A DNA stretch of 64,000 nucleotides from Haloplanus aerogenes (GTDB lineage Archaea > Halobacteriota > Halobacteria > Halobacteriales > Haloferacaceae): the NCBI RefSeq assembly GCF_003856835.1, contig NZ_CP034145.1:1116001-1180000 (forward strand), given 5' to 3'. Position 1 is the stretch's first letter. Each line of letters starts with the position of its first letter. Made by a program: the position numbers and the translations under genes. Of the stretch, positions 18,013 through 27,509 are shown piece after piece. Under the pieces are notes generated by a model. That model was not told where the DNA came from. It worked only from the letters and a program-made list of their open reading frames with translations, and searched no databases.

Positions 18013-18549
18013 TCATAATAACTGCTGAAGGTACAGCCATCGGCGCGACCAGAACTGGTAGAGCGTCGACACGGCGATGACGACGAGGAAGAAGCTTGCC
18101 CACAGCAGCGGATCGATCGCCGAGACCAGCGGCGTGTTGGTAGATGCGAGGACGATACTGAGGAGGGAGATCGTACCGAGCGCTCGATAGTAGGTCGCCC
18201 ACGTAACGCCGTAGCGGGTGACCACTTCCATATACAGATCGACTTGGCGGGCGGACTTTCGGAGGATGATCGTCTTTCGGTCGCTGTCGTAGTCAACGAT
18301 ACCTGCGTCGTCGAGCTTGGGGAGGTGCGTCTGATGGAGCGAGACGTACACGCTGTCTCGGATGTTGCTCGGTGGCGGCGACTCGTTCGTCTCGATTTCG
18401 GCGATGTGTTCCGCGAGATCACGGAGCGACACCTCGCGCCCCCGGTCCTGGAGGCACTTGATGACGTTTCTGCGACGGTCGTTTCGAAGAATATCGTGGA
18501 TATCCGTTTCGGGAAGTACGTCGTCGGTTTGGAGTAGTCCAATGTTCAT
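18013..18549 (-). CDS. DUF7344-type winged-helix regulator with two C-terminal membrane helices
   Basis: The 178-residue protein (from MNIGLLQTDD) has an N-terminal winged helix (about 15-95) with the family pattern LRNDRRRNVIKCLQDRG, VSLRDLAEHIAEIE, YVSLHQTHLPKLDDAGIVDYD, followed by two hydrophobic helices (about 120-165). This is the common haloarchaeal DUF7344 arrangement, a membrane-tethered DNA-binding protein. Genes of this family often sit next to SipW-type secreted proteins, as here, where it is divergent from the cluster starting at 18919. It is therefore the best local candidate for the regulator of the surface-protein operon. The ATG at 18549 is preferred to GTG at 18567. Confidence 0.8.
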   Translation of the reverse strand: MNIGLLQTDDVLPETDIHDILRNDRRRNVIKCLQDRGREVSLRDLAEHIAEIETNESPPPSNIRDSVYVSLHQTHLPKLDDAGIVDYDSDRKTIILRKSARQVDLYMEVVTRYGVTWATYYRALGTISLLSIVLASTNTPLVSAIDPLLWASFFLVVIAVSTLYQFWSRRWLYLQQLL

Positions 18550-18817
18550 GGCGACCGGGTCGACCACACCAACACGACAAAAGGGGATAGTTATCAGGAG
18601 CTTTCCCCGGAGACGGTCGAGCCTGAACCTGCGGCTAACCCGAAATTATGTAGTTCACCCAACCCAAAAATTCTCGGGTTTCAGTCCCTCTCGCTAGTTA
18701 ATCATTGGTTAACGCGCAGGTATGTGCGCGCACGACGACCGGACTCACTGCCGACGCAGGTAATCGAACCCTTACACCGCTTAGTGCGTCGTTATGTGTG
18801 AGAATTGGTGATTAGCT
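18550..18817. other. Intergenic regulatory stretch between the DUF7344 gene and the SipW-type cluster
   Basis: No gene is visible. It holds AACCCGA (18637-18643) and its exact complement TCGGGTT (18674-18680), a GTTAA-n7-TTAAC dyad (18697-18713) and a weak TATA-like TTATGTG at 18792-18798, 25 or so bases before an ATG at 18818. These are plausible operator and promoter pieces for the divergent genes. Confidence 0.4.
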
Positions 18818-18922
18818 ATGGGGGTGGGTGTTATGCATAGAGGTGTCGGAACACCCACGCTGGTCGCGACGACGGTTCGATTCCGTCGGTGGGCATCCCC
18901 TCACAGGGGAAACACACCATGA
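18818..18922 (+). CDS. Possible leaderless mini-ORF overlapping the first SipW-type gene
   Basis: A 34-codon frame starts at ATG 18818 and ends in TGA at 18920-18922, overlapping the ATG at 18919 as ATGA. It would run straight through T-arm-like element A. The peptide (MGVGVMHRGVG...) has no recognisable features. Support comes only from position and overlap. Confidence 0.25.
   Translation: MGVGVMHRGVGTPTLVATTVRFRRWASPHRGNTP
18824..18909 (+). promoter_or_regulatory. Structured leader element A with tRNA T-arm mimic
   Basis: A 5-bp stem GACGG/CCGTC (18871-18875, 18883-18887) closes a 7-base loop TTCGATT, which is a canonical tRNA T-loop. It is followed directly by GGTGGG (18888-18893), then CAT and a CCCC-n5-GGGG hairpin (18897-18909). 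The CCCAC at 18854-18858 can pair with GTGGG at 18889-18893, giving an acceptor/T-arm-like minihelix. The same CCCAC is also the end of AACACCCAC (18850-18858), a perfect 9-base complement of GTGGGTGTT (18824-18832). These two pairings exclude each other. The start codon follows 9 bases after the last hairpin. Confidence 0.6.
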
Positions 18923-20028
18923 CGGACGAACGATTCGACATATCACGGCGGAAGGCACTAGCTGCACTCGGCACCATCGGCGTAGCGTCGGCGGGTGCTG
19001 GTCTGGGCACGAGCGCGTACTTCTCCGACCAGGAGACGTTCGAGAACAACTCGCTCGTGGCCGGCACGCTCGACATGGGCGTCGGGTACACGGCGCACTA
19101 CTCGGACTGGAGCCCGGACGAGGACGGTGGTGACACGGAGACGACCGACGACGACGTCGACGTGATCATGTACGACGGCGGTCCCAACGAAACCGGGAGT
19201 GCCGGTGAGCTGCCCACGGTTAACGGTACGCAGTACACGGGCCTGCCCGCGAATGACGCGTGGCTGATCGCCGTCGACGACCCCGACCAGTTCCTCACGA
19301 ACACCCAGACCGGCGTCTATCCGAACGCCGGCGATACCGACGGCGATGGCGTCGACGATCAGGGCCCGGTCGAATGTGTCGACAACGGTGACGGTGCCCT
19401 CGTCGCGAACGCACAGGCCGACGACGCCACGAAGCCAGTGATCGAACTGGACGACGTGAAGCCGGGCGACTTCGGCGAGGTCACGTTCGACTTCGTGCTG
19501 TGTGACAACCCCGGCTACGTCTGGCTGAACGGCAGCGTCATCAGCGAGAGCGAGAACGGGATCACCGAACCGGAGGCCGACGACCCCGACGAAGAGGAGA
19601 CCGAAGAGCGACCGGCGAGCGAGGACAGCGAGAGCGACGTGGTCGAACTCCTCGACGTCGTGCAGGCTGCCGTCTGGGTCGACAACGGCAACAACTACCA
19701 AGACGGCGACGAGGGCGGCGTGATGCTCAACACGGGATCGCTCCGCGAGGTTCTGGGAATGGTCAGCGGGGGTTCGGCCGGATACGAACTCAACGGCAAC
19801 ATGAACGCGGAAGCCGGTGGCGGGACCGGCGACCAGGGGTGTTTCGAGGCGAACACCATGCACTCGCTCGCGTTCGCGTGGTGGGTTCCCATCGACCACG
19901 GCAACGAGATTCAGTCCGACTCCGCGACGTTCGACCTCGGCTTCTACACCGAGCAGTGCCGCCACAACGACGGCAGCGGCATGAACAACGAGGGCCTCGA
20001 AGACGAAGTCGACGACGACGCGGAATAA
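18919..20028 (+). CDS. SipW/TasA-type secreted surface protein
   Basis: The 369-residue acidic protein starts with a basic segment and hydrophobic core (SRRKALAALGTIGVASAGAG) followed by TSAYFSDQETFENNSLVAG, the pattern of SipW-processed TasA/camelysin precursors. The mature part contains DVKPGDFGEVTF, CDNPGYVWLNG, an acidic linker, WWVPIDHGNEIQSDSATFDLGFYTEQC and an acidic tail. In bacteria and in Pyrobaculum such proteins form extracellular fibres by donor-strand exchange; that role here is inferred. The matching signal peptidase is encoded at 23308. The downstream paralog at 20157 shares both ends of the protein, including a 43-base exact match. Start ATG 18919 is chosen because the signal peptide begins there. 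Confidence 0.85.
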   Translation: MTDERFDISRRKALAALGTIGVASAGAGLGTSAYFSDQETFENNSLVAGTLDMGVGYTAHYSDWSPDEDGGDTETTDDDVDVIMYDGGPNETGSAGELPTVNGTQYTGLPANDAWLIAVDDPDQFLTNTQTGVYPNAGDTDGDGVDDQGPVECVDNGDGALVANAQADDATKPVIELDDVKPGDFGEVTFDFVLCDNPGYVWLNGSVISESENGITEPEADDPDEEETEERPASEDSESDVVELLDVVQAAVWVDNGNNYQDGDEGGVMLNTGSLREVLGMVSGGSAGYELNGNMNAEAGGGTGDQGCFEANTMHSLAFAWWVPIDHGNEIQSDSATFDLGFYTEQCRHNDGSGMNNEGLEDEVDDDAE

Positions 20029-20041
20029 CGGACCCCTCACA

Positions 20042-20115
20042 CCCACTTGGAGACAGCGTCTCCCCCCGACGCTGACGGCGGTTCGATTCCGCCGGTGGGC
20101 ATCCCCGGGACGGGG
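20042..20115 (+). promoter_or_regulatory. Structured leader element B with tRNA T-arm mimic
   Basis: GGCGG/CCGCC (20077-20081, 20089-20093) closes the T-loop-like TTCGATT, followed by GGTGGGCAT and CCCC-n5-GGGG (20103-20115), the same order as element A. Compared with A the second stem pair is changed on both sides (A-T to G-C), which preserves pairing. CCCAC (20042-20046) can pair with GTGGG (20095-20099). Between them CAGCGTC (20054-20060) and GACGCTG (20068-20074) form a 7-bp stem with a 7-base loop, reminiscent of an anticodon arm, while GGAGAC-AGC-GTCTCC (20049-20063) is a competing hairpin. The element fills most of the gap before the gene at 20157. Confidence 0.6.
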
Positions 20116-20156
20116 AGTGAGGCCGCCTCAATGCGGTCGAACGAGAACACGAAACC

Positions 20157-22118
20157 ATGTCAAACAACGACTTCGAACTCTCACGGCGGAAAGCGCTCGC
20201 CGCTCTCGGTAGCATCGGCGTGGCGTCGGCTGGGGCCGGACTCGGAACGTCCGCGTTCTTCAGCGATCAGGAAACGTTCCAGAACAACCGACTCGTTGCG
20301 GGCGAACTCGACCTCAAGTTGGACTGGGAGGAGCACTACTCCAACTGGTCCGCGGACGAGAACGACGACCGGGAAGAGAACGACGGCGGTGACGGCGAAG
20401 GCGACGACGGCGTCGGCGAATTCGAAGTGACGATGGAGCGCCCGGATAATCCGGGGATGTACCGTCCGTTCCCGCCCGGGACGGAGGGCTTCGACAACGA
20501 TCAGGAGCCGCTTCTCTGGGTGCCCGAAGCGTACGTCGACGACTTCATGGACAACACGTCCATCGAAGCGTATCCCGATTCGAACAACGACGGCATCGCG
20601 GAGTTCCCGATCGAGGAAATGAACGATCGGGCTCCCTGTGACTACCTCGCCGACGTGGGCGCCAACGACGAGGGACTCGATCCGGACAGCGATCCGCTGG
20701 GCCGGACGGACAACGACGACACGCGTCTCGACGATGGCTCGCCGGCACCGATGATCCATCTGCAGGACGTGAAGCCGGGCGACTTCGGCGAGGTCACGTT
20801 CAGTACGCACCTCTGTGACAACCCCGGCTACCTCTGGATGAACATGCCGGGTGGTCTGGATGCGAGCGAGAACGGGTTCACCGAGCCTGAGCTCGACGAC
20901 CCCGACGAAGACGGACCCGGTGGTGAGGTCGAACTCGTCGACCAGATTCAGACTGCCCTCTGGTACGACGACTGTGACAACCTCTTCACCTGCGACGAAC
21001 TGATCGACCTGATGATCGTCGCAGACACGTCAAACAGCATCAACGGGGATCTGGACGAGGATACTGGCGGTCCCGGTGAGGACGACGAAAGTGTTCCCTC
21101 GGAGGCGGAGCTCCTCCGGGACGCGGGGAACGAGTTCATCACTGCACTCGAAAATGCGACCAGTGGTGATCAGGTCAGGGCCGGCTTCCTGACGTTCAAC
21201 GGCGCAGGCGATCCCGACGACGTTGACCCGTCCGGAACCGGGGTCTTCGGTCGTCCAGCTCTGCGCGCCGGTATGGGACCGCTCTCGCAGTTCGATCCGG
21301 ACAACACTGGTGGCCCCGACCTCGGCGAGTTCCTCCCCAACCAGGGGAACGGCAACACGCCGCTCCCGTACGCACTGGATCTGGCGCAACAGGTGCTCGA
21401 TGACCAGGGTCGATCCGGTGCGAAAAAAGTGATCCTGGTTGTCACGGACGGTCTTCCAGACTACGTCGGCGGTGGCAACACCGTGCCGTACACCGTCGAG
21501 GAGAACGAGGGAGGCCCGCTCACGCCCACTGGGAATACCTACACCTCCGCGGTCTACTCCGACGGCATTGCCGACGGTTCCTCCTCCCAGGCCGAACAGG
21601 ACGAGAGCGCGGCTGTCGCCACGGACATCCAGAACGACGGCACCATCATCCGCGTCGCCGGCATCGGTCTCACGCCGTCTGCGGACAACTTCCTGCGCGC
21701 CGGCATCGCCGGCACCGACGGCGATCCGACTTCCGCCGAGAGTGGGTTCTTCTACGACCCCATCGACTTCGCGAGCCTCGTCGACCTCGCCGAGACGATT
21801 GCCGGAGACATCACCGCGGGCGTCAACGGCTGCGAGGAGATCATCTTCTCCGGCACGCTTGGCGAGCTGGAGACCGCACTCACCGCCAACGACGGCCGCG
21901 GCATCCCGCTCGACGGGGAGCTCCCGGCCGAACAAGGCGGCGGGTCCGGTCGAAACTGTTTCGCTGCGAGCGCCACGCACTGCTTTGGCTTCTCGTGGTG
22001 GCTTCCGGTCGACCACGCGAACGAACTCCAATCTGACGGCGTTTCGTTCGACATCGGCTTCTACACCGAGCAGTGCCGCCACAACGACGGCAGCGGGATG
22101 AACAGCGAAGAGGTCTAA
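20157..22118 (+). CDS. SipW/TasA-type secreted protein with inserted von Willebrand A domain
   Basis: The 653-residue acidic protein has the same SipW-type N-terminus as its upstream neighbour (SRRKALAALGSIGVASAGAG, then TSAFFSDQETFQNN), the same DVKPGDFGEVTF and CDNPGYLWMN strands, and the same C-terminal WWLPVDHANELQSD and FYTEQCRHNDGSG. Between them, at about residues 285-560, lies a vWA domain with a full metal-ion site: DTSNS (Asp290, Ser292, Ser294), Thr401 in GNTPLPYAL and Asp431 in VTDGLPDY. vWA domains bind ligands through a metal ion, so this looks like an adhesive, possibly tip, member of the fibre set. It is co-directional with the genes on both sides. Confidence 0.87.
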   Translation: MSNNDFELSRRKALAALGSIGVASAGAGLGTSAFFSDQETFQNNRLVAGELDLKLDWEEHYSNWSADENDDREENDGGDGEGDDGVGEFEVTMERPDNPGMYRPFPPGTEGFDNDQEPLLWVPEAYVDDFMDNTSIEAYPDSNNDGIAEFPIEEMNDRAPCDYLADVGANDEGLDPDSDPLGRTDNDDTRLDDGSPAPMIHLQDVKPGDFGEVTFSTHLCDNPGYLWMNMPGGLDASENGFTEPELDDPDEDGPGGEVELVDQIQTALWYDDCDNLFTCDELIDLMIVADTSNSINGDLDEDTGGPGEDDESVPSEAELLRDAGNEFITALENATSGDQVRAGFLTFNGAGDPDDVDPSGTGVFGRPALRAGMGPLSQFDPDNTGGPDLGEFLPNQGNGNTPLPYALDLAQQVLDDQGRSGAKKVILVVTDGLPDYVGGGNTVPYTVEENEGGPLTPTGNTYTSAVYSDGIADGSSSQAEQDESAAVATDIQNDGTIIRVAGIGLTPSADNFLRAGIAGTDGDPTSAESGFFYDPIDFASLVDLAETIAGDITAGVNGCEEIIFSGTLGELETALTANDGRGIPLDGELPAEQGGGSGRNCFAASATHCFGFSWWLPVDHANELQSDGVSFDIGFYTEQCRHNDGSGMNSEEV

Positions 22119-22119
22119 C

Positions 22120-22193
22120 TGGGGACCACCTCGCTCCCCATCCCTTAGCCCGCGCAGGTCGCCAGTGCGACGGTTCGAATCCGTCGGTGGGTC
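22120..22193 (+). promoter_or_regulatory. Structured leader element C with tRNA T-arm mimic
   Basis: GACGG/CCGTC (22169-22173, 22181-22185) closes TTCGAAT, again a legal T-loop, followed by GGTGGGTC. CCACC (22126-22130) can pair with GGTGG (22186-22190); it sits in the loop of TGGGGA/TCCCCA (22120-22125, 22135-22140), so the two pairings would compete or form a pseudoknot. GCGC and GTGC (22152-22155, 22165-22168) can form a small arm just before the T-arm. The ATG at 22200 follows only 6 bases after the element. A TATA-like reading of TTCGAAT is possible here but does not fit the spacing of elements A and B. Confidence 0.55.
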
Positions 22194-22199
22194 TCTCAG

Positions 22200-23003
22200 A
22201 TGCCCCTGAACTCGCTCACGCGGCGACGGATCCTCGCCGCAGTCGGGAGTGCCGGTGCTCTCTATCTCGGTGTGGATCGAGCCGGGGCTACACTCGGACT
22301 CGATCCAATCGATATGAATCAGCGGACGGTGAACGGGACGTACGCGCAGACGAATGGATTCACCGACGCGCCGCCGCGGATCGCACTCTCCTGGCGCGAA
22401 ATCGTGAACGGCCAGGTGCAGGAAGATACGGGACTCACGACGGATACGGAGGGTGAGACGGGCGACGTGGGGCTGATCGTCGACGAGGCGGTGGTGCCCG
22501 GCGATAGCGGTTCGGTGACGATGCGGGTCGAACTCCTCGAACGGGACACCCCGACCGAGAACGCACAGCTCTATCTACTCTTCCGGCTCTCCGACACGTC
22601 CGAAAACGGAGTGAACGAACCCGAGTTTGATGCCGGCGACGATCCGAGTTCGTCCGAAGGTGAACTCGACGACGAGACGGAGATTTCCGTCTGGATCGAC
22701 GAAGGCATCCTCACCGGCAACGGTGAACTCGAACCGCTGCCGATCATCGGCGACGAGACGGTCGCGGAAGGGAGTCTTCGCCAGGTGTCTCGTGATCCCG
22801 CAGCGGGTGGGATCGGTGGCAACGCAGCCGAGAATACGGGTGGCTACCAGATCACCATCGACGGCGACACGTGTCTCTCCCCTGGCGACGAGGTGTACGT
22901 CTCGTTCCAGTGGCGGATTCCGGAGAGCGTCGGCAACATCATCCAAGGGGATTCGGCAACGTTTCAGGTCGTCTTCGATCCGCGGCCGTGCCCGGAGGGA
23001 TAA
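22200..23003 (+). CDS. Secreted protein of the SipW-type cluster
   Basis: The 267-residue protein has a twin-arginine-like or SipW-type N-terminus (LTRRRILAAVGSAGALYLGV) and an all-beta-looking acidic mature part with VPGDSGSVTMRVEL, LYLLFRLSDTSENGVNEPE and YVSFQWRIPESVGNIIQGDS. The last segment matches the WW[VL]P..H.NE.QSD strand of the two upstream paralogs, so it belongs to the same fold though more diverged and without the FYTEQC ending. It is probably a minor or terminating subunit. The ATG at 22200 directly follows leader element C. Confidence 0.75.
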   Translation: MPLNSLTRRRILAAVGSAGALYLGVDRAGATLGLDPIDMNQRTVNGTYAQTNGFTDAPPRIALSWREIVNGQVQEDTGLTTDTEGETGDVGLIVDEAVVPGDSGSVTMRVELLERDTPTENAQLYLLFRLSDTSENGVNEPEFDAGDDPSSSEGELDDETEISVWIDEGILTGNGELEPLPIIGDETVAEGSLRQVSRDPAAGGIGGNAAENTGGYQITIDGDTCLSPGDEVYVSFQWRIPESVGNIIQGDSATFQVVFDPRPCPEG

Positions 23004-23179
23004 CCATGTCGAAACCGGGGGTTAATGGATCATTAGACGCTCGTTCACACTCTTGTAGTGTGGACTCGGTCGGTCGATTCGCAGGAGTTCCCGCTCCTCT
23101 TACGTTCCGTGACCCCTCTCGTCGTCAGACCCCCCTTCAGGCTCCGCTTACCTCCTGGCGAGTCGTGTCAAAGCAGCGG
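23004..23179. other. Gene-free stretch before the sipW promoter
   Basis: About 175 bases after the stop of the secreted-protein gene show no coding sequence I can support. A pyrimidine-rich section (23090-23160) may act as a terminator region for the upstream operon. Confidence 0.35.
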
Positions 23180-23213
23180 ATAACTAAGGCCGGTACACTA
23201 CTCGATAGTAGTG
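23180..23213 (+). promoter_or_regulatory. Promoter and palindromic operator of the sipW operon
   Basis: ATAACTA at 23180-23186 is TATA-like. CACTACT (23196-23202) and AGTAGTG (23207-23213) form a perfect 7-bp dyad around CGAT, lying exactly between the TATA element and an ATG at 23214. A protein bound there would block polymerase, so this is a good repressor site candidate. The DUF7344 protein is the obvious suspect, but nothing in the sequence proves it. Confidence 0.5.
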
Positions 23214-23311
23214 ATGGACGAAACGGGGGCGAACGACGAGTGGTCGAGTCACATCGGGGGACGACTGTGATGATACCCGGACAGCGACGGATCGGGGGGT
23301 GTCGCGCGTGA
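23214..23311 (+). CDS. Two possible coupled leader peptides before sipW
   Basis: An 18-codon frame (MDETGANDEWSSHIGGRL) runs from 23214 to TGA at 23268-23270 and shares the A of its stop with the ATG of a 13-codon frame (MIPGQRRIGGCRA, 23270-23311), which overlaps the sipW GTG as GTGA. The first ATG lies about 30 bases after a TATA element, so it would be read as a leaderless message. The peptides have no known relatives that I recognise. Confidence 0.3.
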
Positions 23312-24450
23312 ACGCGCAGTCGACGACCGACAGGAACACGCTTCGCTTGGCGAAGAACGCGCTGGTAGTGCTCGTGTTGCTCGCCGTCGTCGCTCCCTTC
23401 GTCGTCTACGCGGTTCCGAGCGTCGTCGGGGCGGACCACGGACTCGTCGTTCTCTCCGGCAGTATGGAGCCGAAGATGAGCCCGGGTGATGCGGTCATCG
23501 TCCGGGAGGTGCCGGCCTCGGAGATCGAGCAGGGCGACATCATTACGTTCCAGCGGTCCGGGAGCGACACGCCGACGACTCACCGAGTGGTCGAGAAACA
23601 GCAGGCTGAGGACGGTGTCGCCTACGTCACCAAAGGCGACGCCAACGAGGAACGTGATCGGGGGACCGTTCCGCACGACCGGGTGGTGGGTGAAGTCATC
23701 TTCGTGATTCCGTTCATCGGTCACGTGATCCAGTTCGCCAACACGCAGGTCGGCTTCCTCGCGCTCGTGCTCACGCCGATGGTTCTGTTCGTCCTCTCGG
23801 AGCTCTGGGAGATGGCGAAGGAGATTCGCGAACCCAAATCGTCCAGCGCGACGGCGACCGACGGGCCGTCGGTTACGGCAGCGACTCGGACGACCACCGA
23901 CGCCAGTGTCGGCACCACTGGCACCGGCGGCGGCGAGAGTGACGGATTCACGCTCACGCGGTCGAGCCTCCAACTGCTCTTGCTCCTGTTCGGACTGTAC
24001 ATGCCGTACAGCGGGTACGTCGCGTACACGATGCAGGAAGCAGTGCCGATAGCCGTCGCGACCGCGACGACGATCGCGTTCCTGTTCTGTCTCGTGATCT
24101 ATCTAGCCAGTCGTGGGGCAGAAAGCGACTCGGCCGGTTCGGCGACCCGTTCGATCGAGGGCGTCGTCCGACAGGGCGAACTCCCAGCGCGGATCGGTGA
24201 GCGTACCACGATCCCGCTGGACTCGGTCGAGTCGCTGGTTCAGATGGCTCTCGACCGCGACGACTGGGTCATCTACGACGACGAGCAGGACACGTACTAC
24301 ATGGCTCGGGACGACGCGCTGTATCTGCACCGTGCGGCGCCCGAAACCGACGGGGGGACGGTCGCCGACGGCGACACGACGGAGACGGTCGAACCGGATC
24401 GGCGGTCGACCGACGACAGTCCGTCCACGACGGGTGGTGGTGGAACGTGA
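23308..24450 (+). CDS. sipW: SipW-type signal peptidase I (archaeal/ER type) with extra C-terminal domain
   Basis: The 380-residue protein has an N-terminal membrane anchor, then the catalytic domain with Ser52 in LSGSMEPKMSPGD, His92 in TTHRVVE and aspartates in TKGDANEERD (Asp111, Asp117); His instead of Lys marks the ER/SipW class. Further helices at about 140-165 and 215-270 are followed by a cytoplasmic domain with DSVESLVQMALDRDDWVIYDD, a segment common to several haloarchaeal S26 proteins. It should cleave the precursors at 18919, 20157 and probably 22200, 24447 and 25512. GTG 23308 is preferred (GTG 23299 is possible). Its stop overlaps the next start by 4 bases. Confidence 0.88.
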   Translation: MNAQSTTDRNTLRLAKNALVVLVLLAVVAPFVVYAVPSVVGADHGLVVLSGSMEPKMSPGDAVIVREVPASEIEQGDIITFQRSGSDTPTTHRVVEKQQAEDGVAYVTKGDANEERDRGTVPHDRVVGEVIFVIPFIGHVIQFANTQVGFLALVLTPMVLFVLSELWEMAKEIREPKSSSATATDGPSVTAATRTTTDASVGTTGTGGGESDGFTLTRSSLQLLLLLFGLYMPYSGYVAYTMQEAVPIAVATATTIAFLFCLVIYLASRGAESDSAGSATRSIEGVVRQGELPARIGERTTIPLDSVESLVQMALDRDDWVIYDDEQDTYYMARDDALYLHRAAPETDGGTVADGDTTETVEPDRRSTDDSPSTTGGGGT

Positions 24451-25511
24451 CCGACGGCCGCGACCTGTCGCGCCGGAAGCTCCTCTGGGCGATGGCTACC
24501 GCCGGAGCTGCGGCGTCGGCCGGGAGCGGCACCGCGGCGATGATGCAGGACTCCGAGAACTTCGACTCAGAAATGATTGCAGGCATAGTCGACCTCGACA
24601 CCGAGCCATCGTGGGGGACCGATTCGAGTTTCGGCACGGCGTCGGAAGGCGATAGTGGGACGGAGACGGTCACGCTCTCGGTTTCGGACAACCCGTCCTA
24701 TCTCTGGTTTCGGACGAAATGCGCTCAGTGTGAGGCGGTCGAAGAGGCGCTGTTCGTTCGCTTCGGTATCGATACCGATGGCGACGGCACCGTCGATCGG
24801 TGGCTCTCCAGCGACTACCTGTCGCTTCGGGAGGCACGCGAGCAGTTCGGCGAGGGGATCAATCTCGGCGAACTCGATCCCACGGATACGTGGGAACTCG
24901 TCGTCGAGTGGGAAGTCCGCGACGGTATTCGAGACGACACTAACGTCGACTTCGACTTCGACTTCTACGCTACCCAGTCACGCCACGTCATGAACACGGA
25001 CTCCGTTGCCCCCGACTGGCAGTGCCCCGGTAGCTGTGGTGGTACGGGTGGCGATCCGGACGAGGAATCCGGGATCAGCTGGGTCGCGTTCTGTAGTTCG
25101 GAAACGTTCTCCAAACGCGATATCGGCTTCGAGCGGAGCGACGACGAACGGAAGCTGGGGATTCGAAGCCTGCCTGCTTCGATCGACACCATCGTCATCA
25201 AGTACGGCACCAACTTGGACGTGTTCGACGTCAGTTCCCGGGGCGGTCAGTTTTCGCTCACGGTCGGCGACGGCACCACGCACACCCAAGAAGGCGACTC
25301 GTACGCCGGCACCGACCGGAGCAATTCGCTCCCGTGCCCCGACAGTTACGGGTGCAAGTACGACTTCCCGGGCCGGAATGACCCGGGTGGCTGGGAGTGT
25401 AAAGACTCCCGAGACGACACGAACATGCAAGACAGAGACTCCGATCCCGGTAGCTGGTCCTTTCACTCGCTCACGGAAACCGGTGGCAGCTTGATAGGGG
25501 GTGAGCGCTGA
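24447..25511 (+). CDS. Secreted protein with SipW-type signal, downstream of sipW
   Basis: The 354-residue protein starts with GTG overlapping the sipW stop (GTGA). Its N-terminus LSRRKLLWAMATAGAAASAG followed by MMQDSENFDSEMIAGIVDLD matches the consensus of SipW substrates. The mature part has SVSDNPSYLWFRTKCAQCE, an FDFDFYATQSRHV segment equivalent to the FYTEQCRHN strand of the major proteins, then a Cys-rich C-terminal extension (about 195-354) with about eight cysteines in acidic context. The extension is unknown to me. Coupling to sipW suggests co-production with the peptidase. Confidence 0.78.
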   Translation: MTDGRDLSRRKLLWAMATAGAAASAGSGTAAMMQDSENFDSEMIAGIVDLDTEPSWGTDSSFGTASEGDSGTETVTLSVSDNPSYLWFRTKCAQCEAVEEALFVRFGIDTDGDGTVDRWLSSDYLSLREAREQFGEGINLGELDPTDTWELVVEWEVRDGIRDDTNVDFDFDFYATQSRHVMNTDSVAPDWQCPGSCGGTGGDPDEESGISWVAFCSSETFSKRDIGFERSDDERKLGIRSLPASIDTIVIKYGTNLDVFDVSSRGGQFSLTVGDGTTHTQEGDSYAGTDRSNSLPCPDSYGCKYDFPGRNDPGGWECKDSRDDTNMQDRDSDPGSWSFHSLTETGGSLIGGER

Positions 25512-27509
25512 ATGTCGCTCCGAGACCTCGATATCACGTGGAAGACCGTCGCCATACTCCTCCTCGCGTTCGTAGTTATCGCTTCGGCGTCCGGCGGTGC
25601 GACGTACACGGTGCTGTCCGACGCGGAATCTACGTCTGGGATTTTGACCGTCGAGGCGCAGTTCTCGAACGGCATGTACCAGCTCAAGCCGATTCCCTGT
25701 CAGCAGGCCGAATCGGCACGTGCCACGGGTGTGACTCCCGATCCGGACGACCAGAAGAAACTCAAGCAGTTCGACGTGGCCGGCAACGGAGGTTGTGCGA
25801 AGATTTCGTTCTGGCTCGCCCCCTTCTGGTTCGGCGATACGTCGCCGTCGAAAGCGACTATCGGTCACCAAGACGAGAGCACCGGGAAGTGGTTGTTCTT
25901 GGAGACCACCGTGGGCAGGCACACCGATCGGACGGTTAGACTCGACGCCGTCACGACCGGGTTCAGTCCGTTCGCGGTGTTCGTGCCTAACGAGACCCAA
26001 AGCCAACCCGTGACGAACGTCGATCCGACGAACGGGACGGCGACGGCATCCACCGATAACGGGACGGCGACGCCGACGCCGACATCGACATCGACGCCGA
26101 CGCCGACATCGACGCCGACGCCGACTCCCACCGAATCGGGTGACCAGTCCACCAGCTCCGGTTCGGCCGGCGCCGGGGCAGTCGATAGTTCGGACGACTC
26201 GTCGGAGTCGGACGAGAGCGAGACGGACTCCACGTTCGACAGCGACTCCGATTCCAGTGACTCCGACGACGGGACGGCAGACGACGAATCGACGTCGTCC
26301 GAGGACGGTTCGGACCCCGACTCCGACTCGTCGGAGGAGTCGACGACGGACAACTCAACGACGGACAACTCGCCGGAGGAATCGACGCCGGACAACTCGC
26401 CGGAGGAGTCGCCGGACAACTCGACGGATGAGTCGCCGGACAACTCGACGGATGAGTCGCCGGAGGAGTCGCCGGACAACTCGCCGGAGGAGTCGCCGGA
26501 GGAGTCGCCGGACAACTCGCCGGAGGAGTCGCCGGAGGAGTCGCCGGACAACTCGCCGGAGGAGTCGCCGGAGGAGTCGCCGGACAACTCGACGGACGAG
26601 TCGCCGGAGGAGTCGCCGGATGATTCCACGACGGATGAGTCGCCGGATGATTCCACGACGGATGAGTCGCCGGATGATTCCACGACGGATGAGTCGCCGG
26701 ATGATTCCACGACGGATGAGTCGCCGGACGAGTCGCCGGACGACTCGGAGGGAGATGATTCGACGCCGGACGACTCGGAGGGAGATGATTCGACGCCGGA
26801 CGACTCGGAGGGAGATGATTCGACGCCGGACGACTCGCCGGATGATTCGCCGGACGACTCGGAGGGAGATGAGTCGCCGGAGGAGTCGCCGGATGATTCC
26901 ACGACGGATGAGTCGCCGGACGAGTCGCCGGACGACTCGGAGGGAGATGATTCGACGCCGGACGACTCGCCGGATGAGTCGCCGGACGACTCGGAGGGAG
27001 ATGATTCGACGCCGGACGACTCGCCGGATGAGTCGCCGGACGAGTCGCCGGACGACTCGGAGGGAGATGATTCGACGCCGGACGACTCGCCGGATGAGTC
27101 GCCGGACGACTCGGAGGGAGAGGAGTCGCCGGATGAGTCGCCGGACGACTCGGAGGGAGATGAGTCGCCGGACGACTCGGAGGGAGATGAGTCGCCGGAG
27201 GAGTCGCCGGATGATTCCACGACGGATGAGTCGCCGGAGGAGTCGCCGGATGATTCCACGACGGATGAGTCGCCGGACGACTCGGAGGGAGATGATTCGA
27301 CGCCGGACGACTCGGAGGGAGATGATTCGACGCCGGACGACTCGCCGGATGAGTCGCCGGACGAGTCGCCGGACGACTCGGAGGGAGATGATTCGACGCC
27401 GGACGACTCGCCGGACGAGTCGCCGGACGACAGTTCCTCCTCGGGCGGCGACACGGATTCGTCCAGCACCGACGATGGAGACGACTCCTCCGACGGCGGG
27501 TCACAATGA
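25512..27509 (+). CDS. Ser/Asp/Glu/Pro-repeat surface protein with SipW-type signal and PGF-pre-PGF-like segment
   Basis: The 665-residue protein begins one base after the upstream stop. Residues about 8-40 form a membrane or signal segment ending in GGATYTVLSDAESTSG, like a SipW substrate. Residues about 80-160 (ISFWLAPFWFG, TGFSPFAVFVP) resemble the PGF-pre-PGF domain found in archaeal surface proteins. From about 175 the chain is a Thr/Pro stretch and then over 400 residues built only from S, D, E, P, T, N and G. No archaeosortase PGF-CTERM tail is present; it ends DDSSDGGSQ. Such a chain would be extended and extremely acidic, fitting a stalk or wall-spanning spacer. Confidence 0.8.
   Translation: MSLRDLDITWKTVAILLLAFVVIASASGGATYTVLSDAESTSGILTVEAQFSNGMYQLKPIPCQQAESARATGVTPDPDDQKKLKQFDVAGNGGCAKISFWLAPFWFGDTSPSKATIGHQDESTGKWLFLETTVGRHTDRTVRLDAVTTGFSPFAVFVPNETQSQPVTNVDPTNGTATASTDNGTATPTPTSTSTPTPTSTPTPTPTESGDQSTSSGSAGAGAVDSSDDSSESDESETDSTFDSDSDSSDSDDGTADDESTSSEDGSDPDSDSSEESTTDNSTTDNSPEESTPDNSPEESPDNSTDESPDNSTDESPEESPDNSPEESPEESPDNSPEESPEESPDNSPEESPEESPDNSTDESPEESPDDSTTDESPDDSTTDESPDDSTTDESPDDSTTDESPDESPDDSEGDDSTPDDSEGDDSTPDDSEGDDSTPDDSPDDSPDDSEGDESPEESPDDSTTDESPDESPDDSEGDDSTPDDSPDESPDDSEGDDSTPDDSPDESPDESPDDSEGDDSTPDDSPDESPDDSEGEESPDESPDDSEGDESPDDSEGDESPEESPDDSTTDESPEESPDDSTTDESPDDSEGDDSTPDDSEGDDSTPDDSPDESPDESPDDSEGDDSTPDDSPDESPDDSSSSGGDTDSSSTDDGDDSSDGGSQ
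26380..27430 (+). repeat. Minisatellite encoding S/D/E/P repeats
   Basis: Tandem units interleave: a 36-base unit encoding EESPEESPDNSP (three copies, about 26464-26590), a 27-base unit encoding DDSTTDESP (four copies, about 26617-26730) and a 30-base unit encoding DDSEGDDSTP (three copies, about 26738-26830), followed by mixed blocks. Copies are nearly identical at DNA level, which points to recent slippage or unequal exchange. All six frames stay open across it. Confidence 0.9.

Follow-up and report, generated by a model that had tools for sequence, protein, structure and literature searches.

The open reading frame at 20157–22118 on the forward strand of the window, the 64,000-nucleotide stretch of Haloplanus aerogenes DNA analysed here, encodes a protein of 653 residues (P0001) in which a vWA domain is nested within a TasA-like scaffold. 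P0001 is probably a minor subunit with an adhesive role in a TasA-type, SipW-dependent surface fibre, and would display the vWA domain outward from a fixed insertion point termed port B. The layout of the protein is as follows.

20157..22118, forward strand: P0001, TasA/SipW-type subunit with a nested vWA domain; SipW-dependent signal peptide by TIGR04088 (21.4 bits against a cut-off of 19)
20157..20255, forward strand: residues 1–33, twin-arginine-like SRRK and SipW-type signal sequence (TIGR04088 at residues 18–49), with cleavage predicted before residue 34
20256..20315, forward strand: residues 34–53 (FFSDQETF...AGELDL), predicted to form the N-terminal donor strand on the basis of a Peptidase_M73 match (residues 22–56) and of the TasA donor strand described in PMC9674648
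20316..20999, forward strand: residues 54–281, first part of the scaffold, its last strand at 265–271 (QTALWYD), by BLASTP and AlphaFold2
21000..21839, forward strand: residues 282–561, inserted vWA domain, by BLASTP, AlphaFold2 and structure matches
21840..22109, forward strand: residues 562–651, second part of the scaffold with the last strands and the C-terminal end FYTEQCRHNDGSGMNSE, by BLASTP and AlphaFold2

When compared by BLASTP with the 369-residue paralogue encoded at 18919, P0001 resolves into two colinear blocks, residues 1–281 at 39% identity (E 2e-41) and residues 562–651 at 51% identity (E 1e-28), and the intervening residues 282–561 have no counterpart in the paralogue. The alignment of both ends with this neighbour, which an earlier note had read from the letters alone, thus stands, as does the presence of a vWA insert between them, the length of which is 280 residues and not the 270 first given.

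The AlphaFold2 model of P0001, built from 25 sequences (mean pLDDT 71.7, pTM 0.65), has most of the core strands and helices of the vWA domain at pLDDT 80–94, the long vWA loops lower, and residues 1–49, including the predicted donor strand, below 50. Scaffold strands at 562–567, 607–615 and 628–639 follow the vWA domain, so that the insertion does lie before the last strands of the scaffold, and structure prediction, proposed in the earlier note as a check, returns a nested and not an end-to-end arrangement. The vWA domain is flanked by strands 265–271 and 562–567, whose equivalents in the model of the plain neighbour (249–255 and 268–274; mean pLDDT 65.2) are consecutive; in the models, the vWA domain thus replaces the turn of one β-hairpin, and would for this reason fold outside the scaffold. 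Nesting is confirmed insofar as sequence alignment and predicted structure agree upon it. Some family members do carry a vWA domain as a C-terminal addition (L061, VWA_4 E 9e-13, and L068), which would favour reading P0001 as an end-to-end fusion mistaken for a nested one, but that reading is so improbable as to be discounted, for the last 90 residues of P0001 align at 51% identity with the end of the plain paralogue and the modelled scaffold strands resume after the vWA domain.

Residues 280–557 of the AlphaFold2 model superpose on the integrin alpha2 I domain with a Z score of 20.9 (rmsd 2.4, 185 residues), on SpaC of Lactobacillus rhamnosus GG with 20.9 (210 residues), and on Mfa5 with 19.5. 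Foldseek likewise ranks SpaC first (E 9e-11), with PitA, RrgA and GBS104 also among the matches. As modelled, the insert is thus similar both to integrin I domains and to the pilus-tip adhesins SpaC, Mfa5 and RrgA. At the level of Pfam profiles the match is weak, P0001 falling under the cut-offs of both VWA_2 (E 1.6e-4; 22.7 bits against 27) and VWA (18.5 against 23.8). The metal-site residues of a vWA domain with a MIDAS, namely DxSxS, Thr and Asp, are all present in P0001 (D290, S292, S294, T401 and D431):

21024..21038, forward strand: MIDAS motif 1, DTSNS (D290–S294), by translation and alignment
21357..21359, forward strand: MIDAS Thr401, by translation and alignment
21447..21449, forward strand: MIDAS Asp431, by translation and alignment

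In an alignment of 12 homologues (A1), D290, S292, S294 and D431 do not vary, and 11 of the 12 sequences have Thr or Ser at position 401, which bears out the earlier description of an intact DTSNS, Thr401 and Asp431.

The scaffold was compared with solved structures through the plain neighbour; in the structure search made with P0001 itself, the vWA domain masked the scaffold. The top three matches to the model of the 18919 protein (pLDDT 65) were all TasA, 8aur (Z 8.6, 168 residues, rmsd 5.8), 5of1 (Z 8.5, 138 residues, rmsd 3.6) and 5of2 (Z 8.1), scores that are barely over 8 and are followed by the next unrelated structure at Z 6.6; Foldseek places TasA at ranks 1–2 (E 1.2e-3). Among solved structures, the modelled scaffold therefore resembles TasA best, in support of the earlier proposal that a TasA-like scaffold hosts the nested domain. 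Sequence relationships are more distant. The Pfam family Peptidase_M73 is matched by the neighbour at 23.6 bits, over the cut-off of 22.5, and by P0001 at 17.8 bits, under it, and PDB sequence searches with either protein gave no match. A PDB profile search with alignment A3 returned vWA proteins among the best 60 matches, and is uninformative on the scaffold because most sequences in A3 carry a vWA domain.

The genes around P0001 give the scaffold a context:

18013..18567, reverse strand: divergent DUF7344 winged-helix-like regulator (PF24035, E 2e-32)
18919..20028, forward strand: plain paralogue without insert, 369 residues, candidate main subunit (Peptidase_M73, SipW-type signal, BLASTP, structure search)
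22200..23003, forward strand: small TasA-like protein, 267 residues, candidate anchor or cap by its weak scaffold match (segment HMMs M and C)
23299..24450, forward strand: SipW-like archaeal signal peptidase fused to a DUF5305-like tail (TIGR02228, 115 bits against 51.85)
24447..25511, forward strand: predicted Tat-signal protein, 354 residues (weak match)
25512..27509, forward strand: open reading frame whose 665-residue product has a long Ser/Asp/Glu/Pro repeat region and may be a stalk or an anchor that spans the wall

Together, 18013–27509 looks like a complete fibre locus, with the roles given to the products of 24447 and 25512 being guesses, and the choice of the 18919 product as candidate main subunit following from its absence of an insert. 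The peptidase at 23299–24450 scores 101.5 bits with the Bacillus SipW model, under that model's own cut-off of 190, and a similar peptidase occurs within the fetched stretch of 13 of the 30 haloarchaeal loci described below. Long open reading frames in other frames at 25512–27509 look like by-products of the repeat.

This combination of features is shared with the TasA/camelysin fibres of Bacillus (PF12389; 8aur, 5of1, 5of2), which likewise have a SipW-type signal, a linked SipW-like peptidase, a strand region after the signal and, as far as the model of the plain neighbour indicates, a jelly-roll-like fold. The haloarchaeal scaffold differs in being longer, in belonging to a large paralogue family, and in carrying inserts or tails of about 130–430 residues at fixed ports; no nested domain is described in the passages of the TasA literature examined. 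It is unlikely that these proteins form no fibre at all and are monomeric or cell-anchored surface proteins, in which a TasA-like export module has been joined to assorted binding domains. Such an arrangement would agree with the Pfam-level sequence relation to TasA, which is confined to the signal region, and with the literature searched, in which no experimental filament of this scaffold family was found; against it stand the linked SipW-like peptidase, the resemblance to the TasA fold and the N-terminal strand region. The archaeal bundling pilus AbpA of Pyrobaculum, of a type reported to be TasA-related in PMC9674648, is a further point of comparison. Its solved structure (7ueg) is archaeal and appears among the structure matches, but the chain has 180 residues and its match to the 18919 model (Z 5.7) is level with unrelated folds and not above background.

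P0001 is one of about 15 scaffold paralogues in its genome. A search of this genome gave 42 matching places, from which 13 clear scaffold proteins were obtained, and segment HMMs added four more distant ones (two in L042, one each in L051 and L052). The insertion point of P0001 is occupied by a vWA domain in one other paralogue (1650424) and by a Cys-rich region in another (1465588). Three paralogues carry inserts at an earlier loop, port A (1053499, 1638141 and 3408616), the first of these inserts being a choice-of-anchor L domain (E 5e-56), and five have long C-terminal additions, which include a Laminin_G_3 domain (3e-24) in 1247459 and a copper-binding domain (Copper-bind, 1e-8) in 2728741. 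Paralogues without an insert are the 18919 protein and 1652420.

Beyond this genome, P0001 as a query finds matches at E 1e-5 or better in 163 of 391 genomes of the class, and a search of viral contigs gave no relative, which counts against a viral origin. A scan of genome contigs yielded 39 loci, 30 of them haloarchaeal and nine in bacterial assemblies, most of which are titled as Patescibacteria-type. The bacterial loci (L083–L091) encode proteins with the DVKPGDFG scaffold motif. Inserts were surveyed in 148 scaffold proteins from loci L001–L082, delimited by three segment HMMs; the bacterial loci L083–L091 were excluded, and open reading frames touching the end of a locus or without both M and C segments were dropped. 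Of the 148, 58 have no detectable H segment and do not enter the counts for ports A and B (n = 90).

Within this set, gap lengths are bimodal at fixed ports, with no intermediate values (n = 90, 90 and 148 for port A, port B and the tail, respectively). Port A is short in 84 proteins and long in six (281–361 residues); port B is short in 26 and long in 64 (183–324), a count that includes the slightly later inserts between 'GIPL' and 'CF' which define port D; and the tail is short in 111 and long (129 residues or more) in 37. A vWA domain occupies port B in 42 of the 90 proteins with all segments, so that the insertion point of P0001 recurs across haloarchaea, as the earlier note had proposed to check, at a frequency that 42 of 90 overstates because the query used to collect the loci itself carried a vWA domain. 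The other 48 comprise 20 without an internal insert, 11 with a port D insert, six with a port A insert, five others, and six with a port B insert called propeller-like from a reading of the sequence and without a family match. In the 42 proteins labelled as having vWA at port B, 6–21 residues (median 15) separate the end of the H segment ('xDN') from the MIDAS Asp, and DxSxS is present in 41, a count that is partly circular because the labels themselves use an HMM or the DxSxS pattern; the third metal-site pattern matched helices in some sequences of this set and was put aside. Further domain matches were to choice-of-anchor L (3.5e-61) and choice-of-anchor W (8e-21). The vWA domain is thus one of several domain types, and port B one of about four ports.

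Two observations concern the other inserts. Those at port D share a VKGGxxANVYSY motif (L023, L027, L031, L057, L071, L079 and others), and in the one such protein scanned (L027) the insert had no Pfam or NCBIfam match. Inside port A inserts, a second Tat-like signal is seen in L046:6617-8710, L060:9876-12386, L071:4273-6288 and L041:4142-6196, and these look as if a whole secreted protein had been spliced, with its signal, into the loop.

On a quick maximum-likelihood tree of the scaffold columns alone (194), which is weakly resolved and has two very long branches, insert class changes at least 18 times among six classes; the mean after shuffling was 43.8, and 5 is the smallest number possible. 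Gain or loss of the vWA domain accounts for at least six events when only branches with support of 95 or more are counted, and one propeller-like protein (L071_884) groups with two vWA proteins at a support of 98. These changes indicate that domains have repeatedly been exchanged at the port, and, as judged from sequence, that the scaffold is a modular subunit whose domains have moved between lineages many times. The scaffold would then serve as a general display platform: port B takes vWA, propeller-like and Cys-rich domains among others, two further loops take different domains again, and the C-terminus bears lectin-like, copper-binding, beta-helix or vWA domains.

For P0001 itself, the pre-protein would be exported and its signal removed by the linked SipW-like peptidase. 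If TasA is a guide, donor-strand assembly with the plain 18919 subunit would then proceed through the N-terminal strand so released and the predicted jelly-roll scaffold, and the vWA domain, standing in place of a hairpin turn, would be carried outward with its MIDAS exposed. The biochemistry of vWA domains suggests that the coordination of a divalent metal would be complete once a ligand, on a surface or on another cell, is bound.

Although vWA domains can serve structural or signalling roles without adhesion, the conserved MIDAS and the part played by vWA domains in pili make metal-dependent adhesion the likeliest role for P0001. The vWA-bearing type IV pilin PilB of Streptococcus sanguinis is an adhesin according to PMC8179133, which also reports that PilB binds two ligands in vitro without the need for metal, a caution for the metal-dependent reading. 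It is quite improbable that the domain is structural, with metal binding used to stabilize neighbouring fibres or cross-link them into bundles without an external ligand. A surface loop of TasA (residues 174–177) mediates bundling, as described in PMC9674648, and the inserts considered here replace a turn; the MIDAS positions are nonetheless retained, and the many different domains found at one port argue for diversity of ligands over a single bundling role.

Where in the fibre an adhesive P0001 would sit is a separate matter. A tip-specific adhesin, laid down first and capping the distal end in the manner of RrgA, SpaC or PilB instead of decorating the shaft, is somewhat unlikely, though it has several points in its favour: the closest solved relatives of the vWA domain are pilus-tip proteins (SpaC, Mfa5, RrgA and GBS104), P0001 comes after the plain paralogue in the cluster, and S. 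sanguinis PilB is reported, in PMC8179133, to be compatible only with the tip. P0001 nevertheless keeps its predicted donor strand and, to the extent that the model shows it, the scaffold, so that insertion into the shaft is possible, and several clusters encode at least two different insert-bearing subunits in a row, which is hard to square with one tip each. Given the retained donor region and the several insert-bearing genes per cluster, we lean towards a shaft or mixed placement.

Other pili display comparable modules on unrelated scaffolds. The tip adhesins of sortase-assembled pili (SpaC, RrgA, PitA and GBS104) also place a MIDAS-bearing vWA domain in a pilus protein, but their scaffold has another fold and is anchored by sortase, whereas the P0001 translation has no LPXTG sorting motif. 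The modular type IV pilins PilB and PilC of S. sanguinis likewise carry modules (vWA and lectin) on a pilin in many architectures; as set out in PMC8179133, these differ in having a class III signal and a module that is joined through a loop at the end of the pilin and not nested. P0001 has neither a class III prepilin signal nor an N-terminal pilin helix, matches no pilin family, and bears a SipW-type/twin-arginine-like signal instead. The haloarchaeal proteins would thus extend the idea of the modular pilin to a third, unrelated type of fibre and to archaea, with modules nested instead of joined end-to-end and with a catalogue of about 15 presentation subunits in one genome. The fixed ports could also act as natural display sites.

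The fibre genes of the window are further distinguished by their leaders. Three copies of GGTTCGANTCCNNCGGTGGG precede 18919, 20157 and 22200, against a chance expectation of 0.08 in the window with up to two mismatches allowed. The repeat comprises a T-arm (five pairs and a seven-nucleotide loop) and then a strand that pairs with an upstream CCCAC or its equivalent, and the leader has the shape of the top half of a tRNA without a D-arm. These tRNA-like t-elements, with their predicted cut sites, are as follows.

18852..18909, forward strand: t-element before the plain subunit (covariance model E 2.8e-8; putative tRNase Z cut after 18895)
20040..20115, forward strand: t-element before P0001 and start of a CCCC/GGGG hairpin (E 7.7e-8; putative tRNase Z cut after 20101)
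22147..22197, forward strand: t-element before the small TasA-like gene (E 0.009; putative tRNase Z cut after 22193)

The T-arm, sought with at least four of its five pairs, was found in 83 of 146 leaders, 59 of which have a 5' strand defined by context, and the leader alignment (A4) contains 43 of these 59, omitting 15 with longer loops and the third copy of the window. Over the 12 pairs of the acceptor-like helix and T-arm, 94.2% of cells are paired, a percentage favoured by the search itself, which required T-arm pairs and a 5' strand with pyrimidines at four places. Compensatory changes are less affected by this selection, and eight of the 12 pairs are altered on both sides somewhere in the alignment. 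Slid versions of the alignment reach 38–54% pairing, and none of 500 shuffles was as high as the original. A first pairing test, in which six pairs were allowed anywhere in 110 nucleotides with G-U included, was uninformative (60 of 72 consensus leaders partnered against a shuffled mean of 52.7, and seven of 11 variant leaders against a swap-control mean of 9.0) and was replaced by the context-defined alignment. Folding energies of single leaders are mostly unremarkable, with z values of -1.5, -2.3 and -0.2, and -0.8 for an element before 5S rRNA, which when folded alone is predicted without its acceptor pairing. No Rfam family reaches its cut-off in 18600–25600, and ARAGORN finds no tRNA within the window; elsewhere, in L096, it makes one poor 'tRNA-???' call, which overlies the element at 1654557.

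Within the genome of the window, the covariance model gives 11 hits with E below 0.01, three of which belonged to the training set, and all precede TasA-like genes with a SipW or Tat signal. The next two hits (E 0.07), in L099 and L102 near position 1500 (G000:C1:310877 and 3103664), lie just ahead of a sequence that we take to be 5S rRNA. A fourteenth hit lies at G000:C1:1080165-1080252 (E 0.22). Hits occur in 22 of 59 genomes of the class. Outside this genome, 28 loci were considered: in 14 the element leads into a scaffold protein recognized by HMM, and in four more (L125, L134, L144 and L146) into one recognized by its reading frames; five (L123, L126, L129, L133 and L136) lead into a family of surface proteins starting MxRR...GAFTSVEADR, presumably DUF1102-like, and the other five (L127, L128, L141, L142 and L149) have no gene assigned. 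Some of the fibre-gene elements may already be listed in the study of Haloferax volcanii tRNA-like elements by Hoelzle et al. 2012.

Among the surveyed genes, a t-element stands before 49 of the 55 that are internal to a cluster, before 23 of the 51 that come first or are isolated, and before three of 377 other open reading frames of 200 residues or more, two of these three being relatives of the 22200 protein by their N-termini. A role as operon separators only is weakened by the 23 of 51 first or isolated genes that also have one. The H. volcanii t-element that immediately precedes 5S rRNA is processed by tRNase Z (PMC4326828), and RNase P as well as tRNase Z accepts t-elements as substrates (PMC4326828, PMC7714728 and PMC3296008). 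The fibre-gene elements share with these a tRNA-like structure directly upstream of the mature RNA, but they precede protein-coding genes, one each, and a CCCC/GGGG hairpin comes after them, then the start codon. Processing of the fibre-gene mRNAs at their t-elements is predicted, the cut positions given above being placed by analogy.

A tentative but plausible model unites the two sets of observations: a modular haloarchaeal fibre system would combine a TasA-type scaffold, with exchangeable domains at about four ports, and a t-element before nearly every cluster-internal gene, at which tRNase Z and RNase P would divide the transcript into mRNAs of one gene each, with short hairpins as leaders, and so set the stoichiometry of the subunits. 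In the open-licence literature searched, on TasA/SipW in archaea, archaeal bundling pili, vWA domains at pilus tips and t-elements in mRNAs, and including PMC10151520, PMC9715654, PMC4946936 and PMC13082335, neither nested modules in TasA-type subunits nor t-elements before fibre genes were found described. Cutting of the leaders, if it occurs, would be a rare instance in which tRNA-processing enzymes influence how surface-fibre genes are expressed, and the exact cut positions that are predicted open the model to direct test. A separate motif, ATTA(A/G)CTA, lies upstream of 13 of the 51 scaffold genes that are first or isolated, for example at 18811–18818 of the window (attagcta), and of none of 55 internal genes; it is a candidate promoter or operator.
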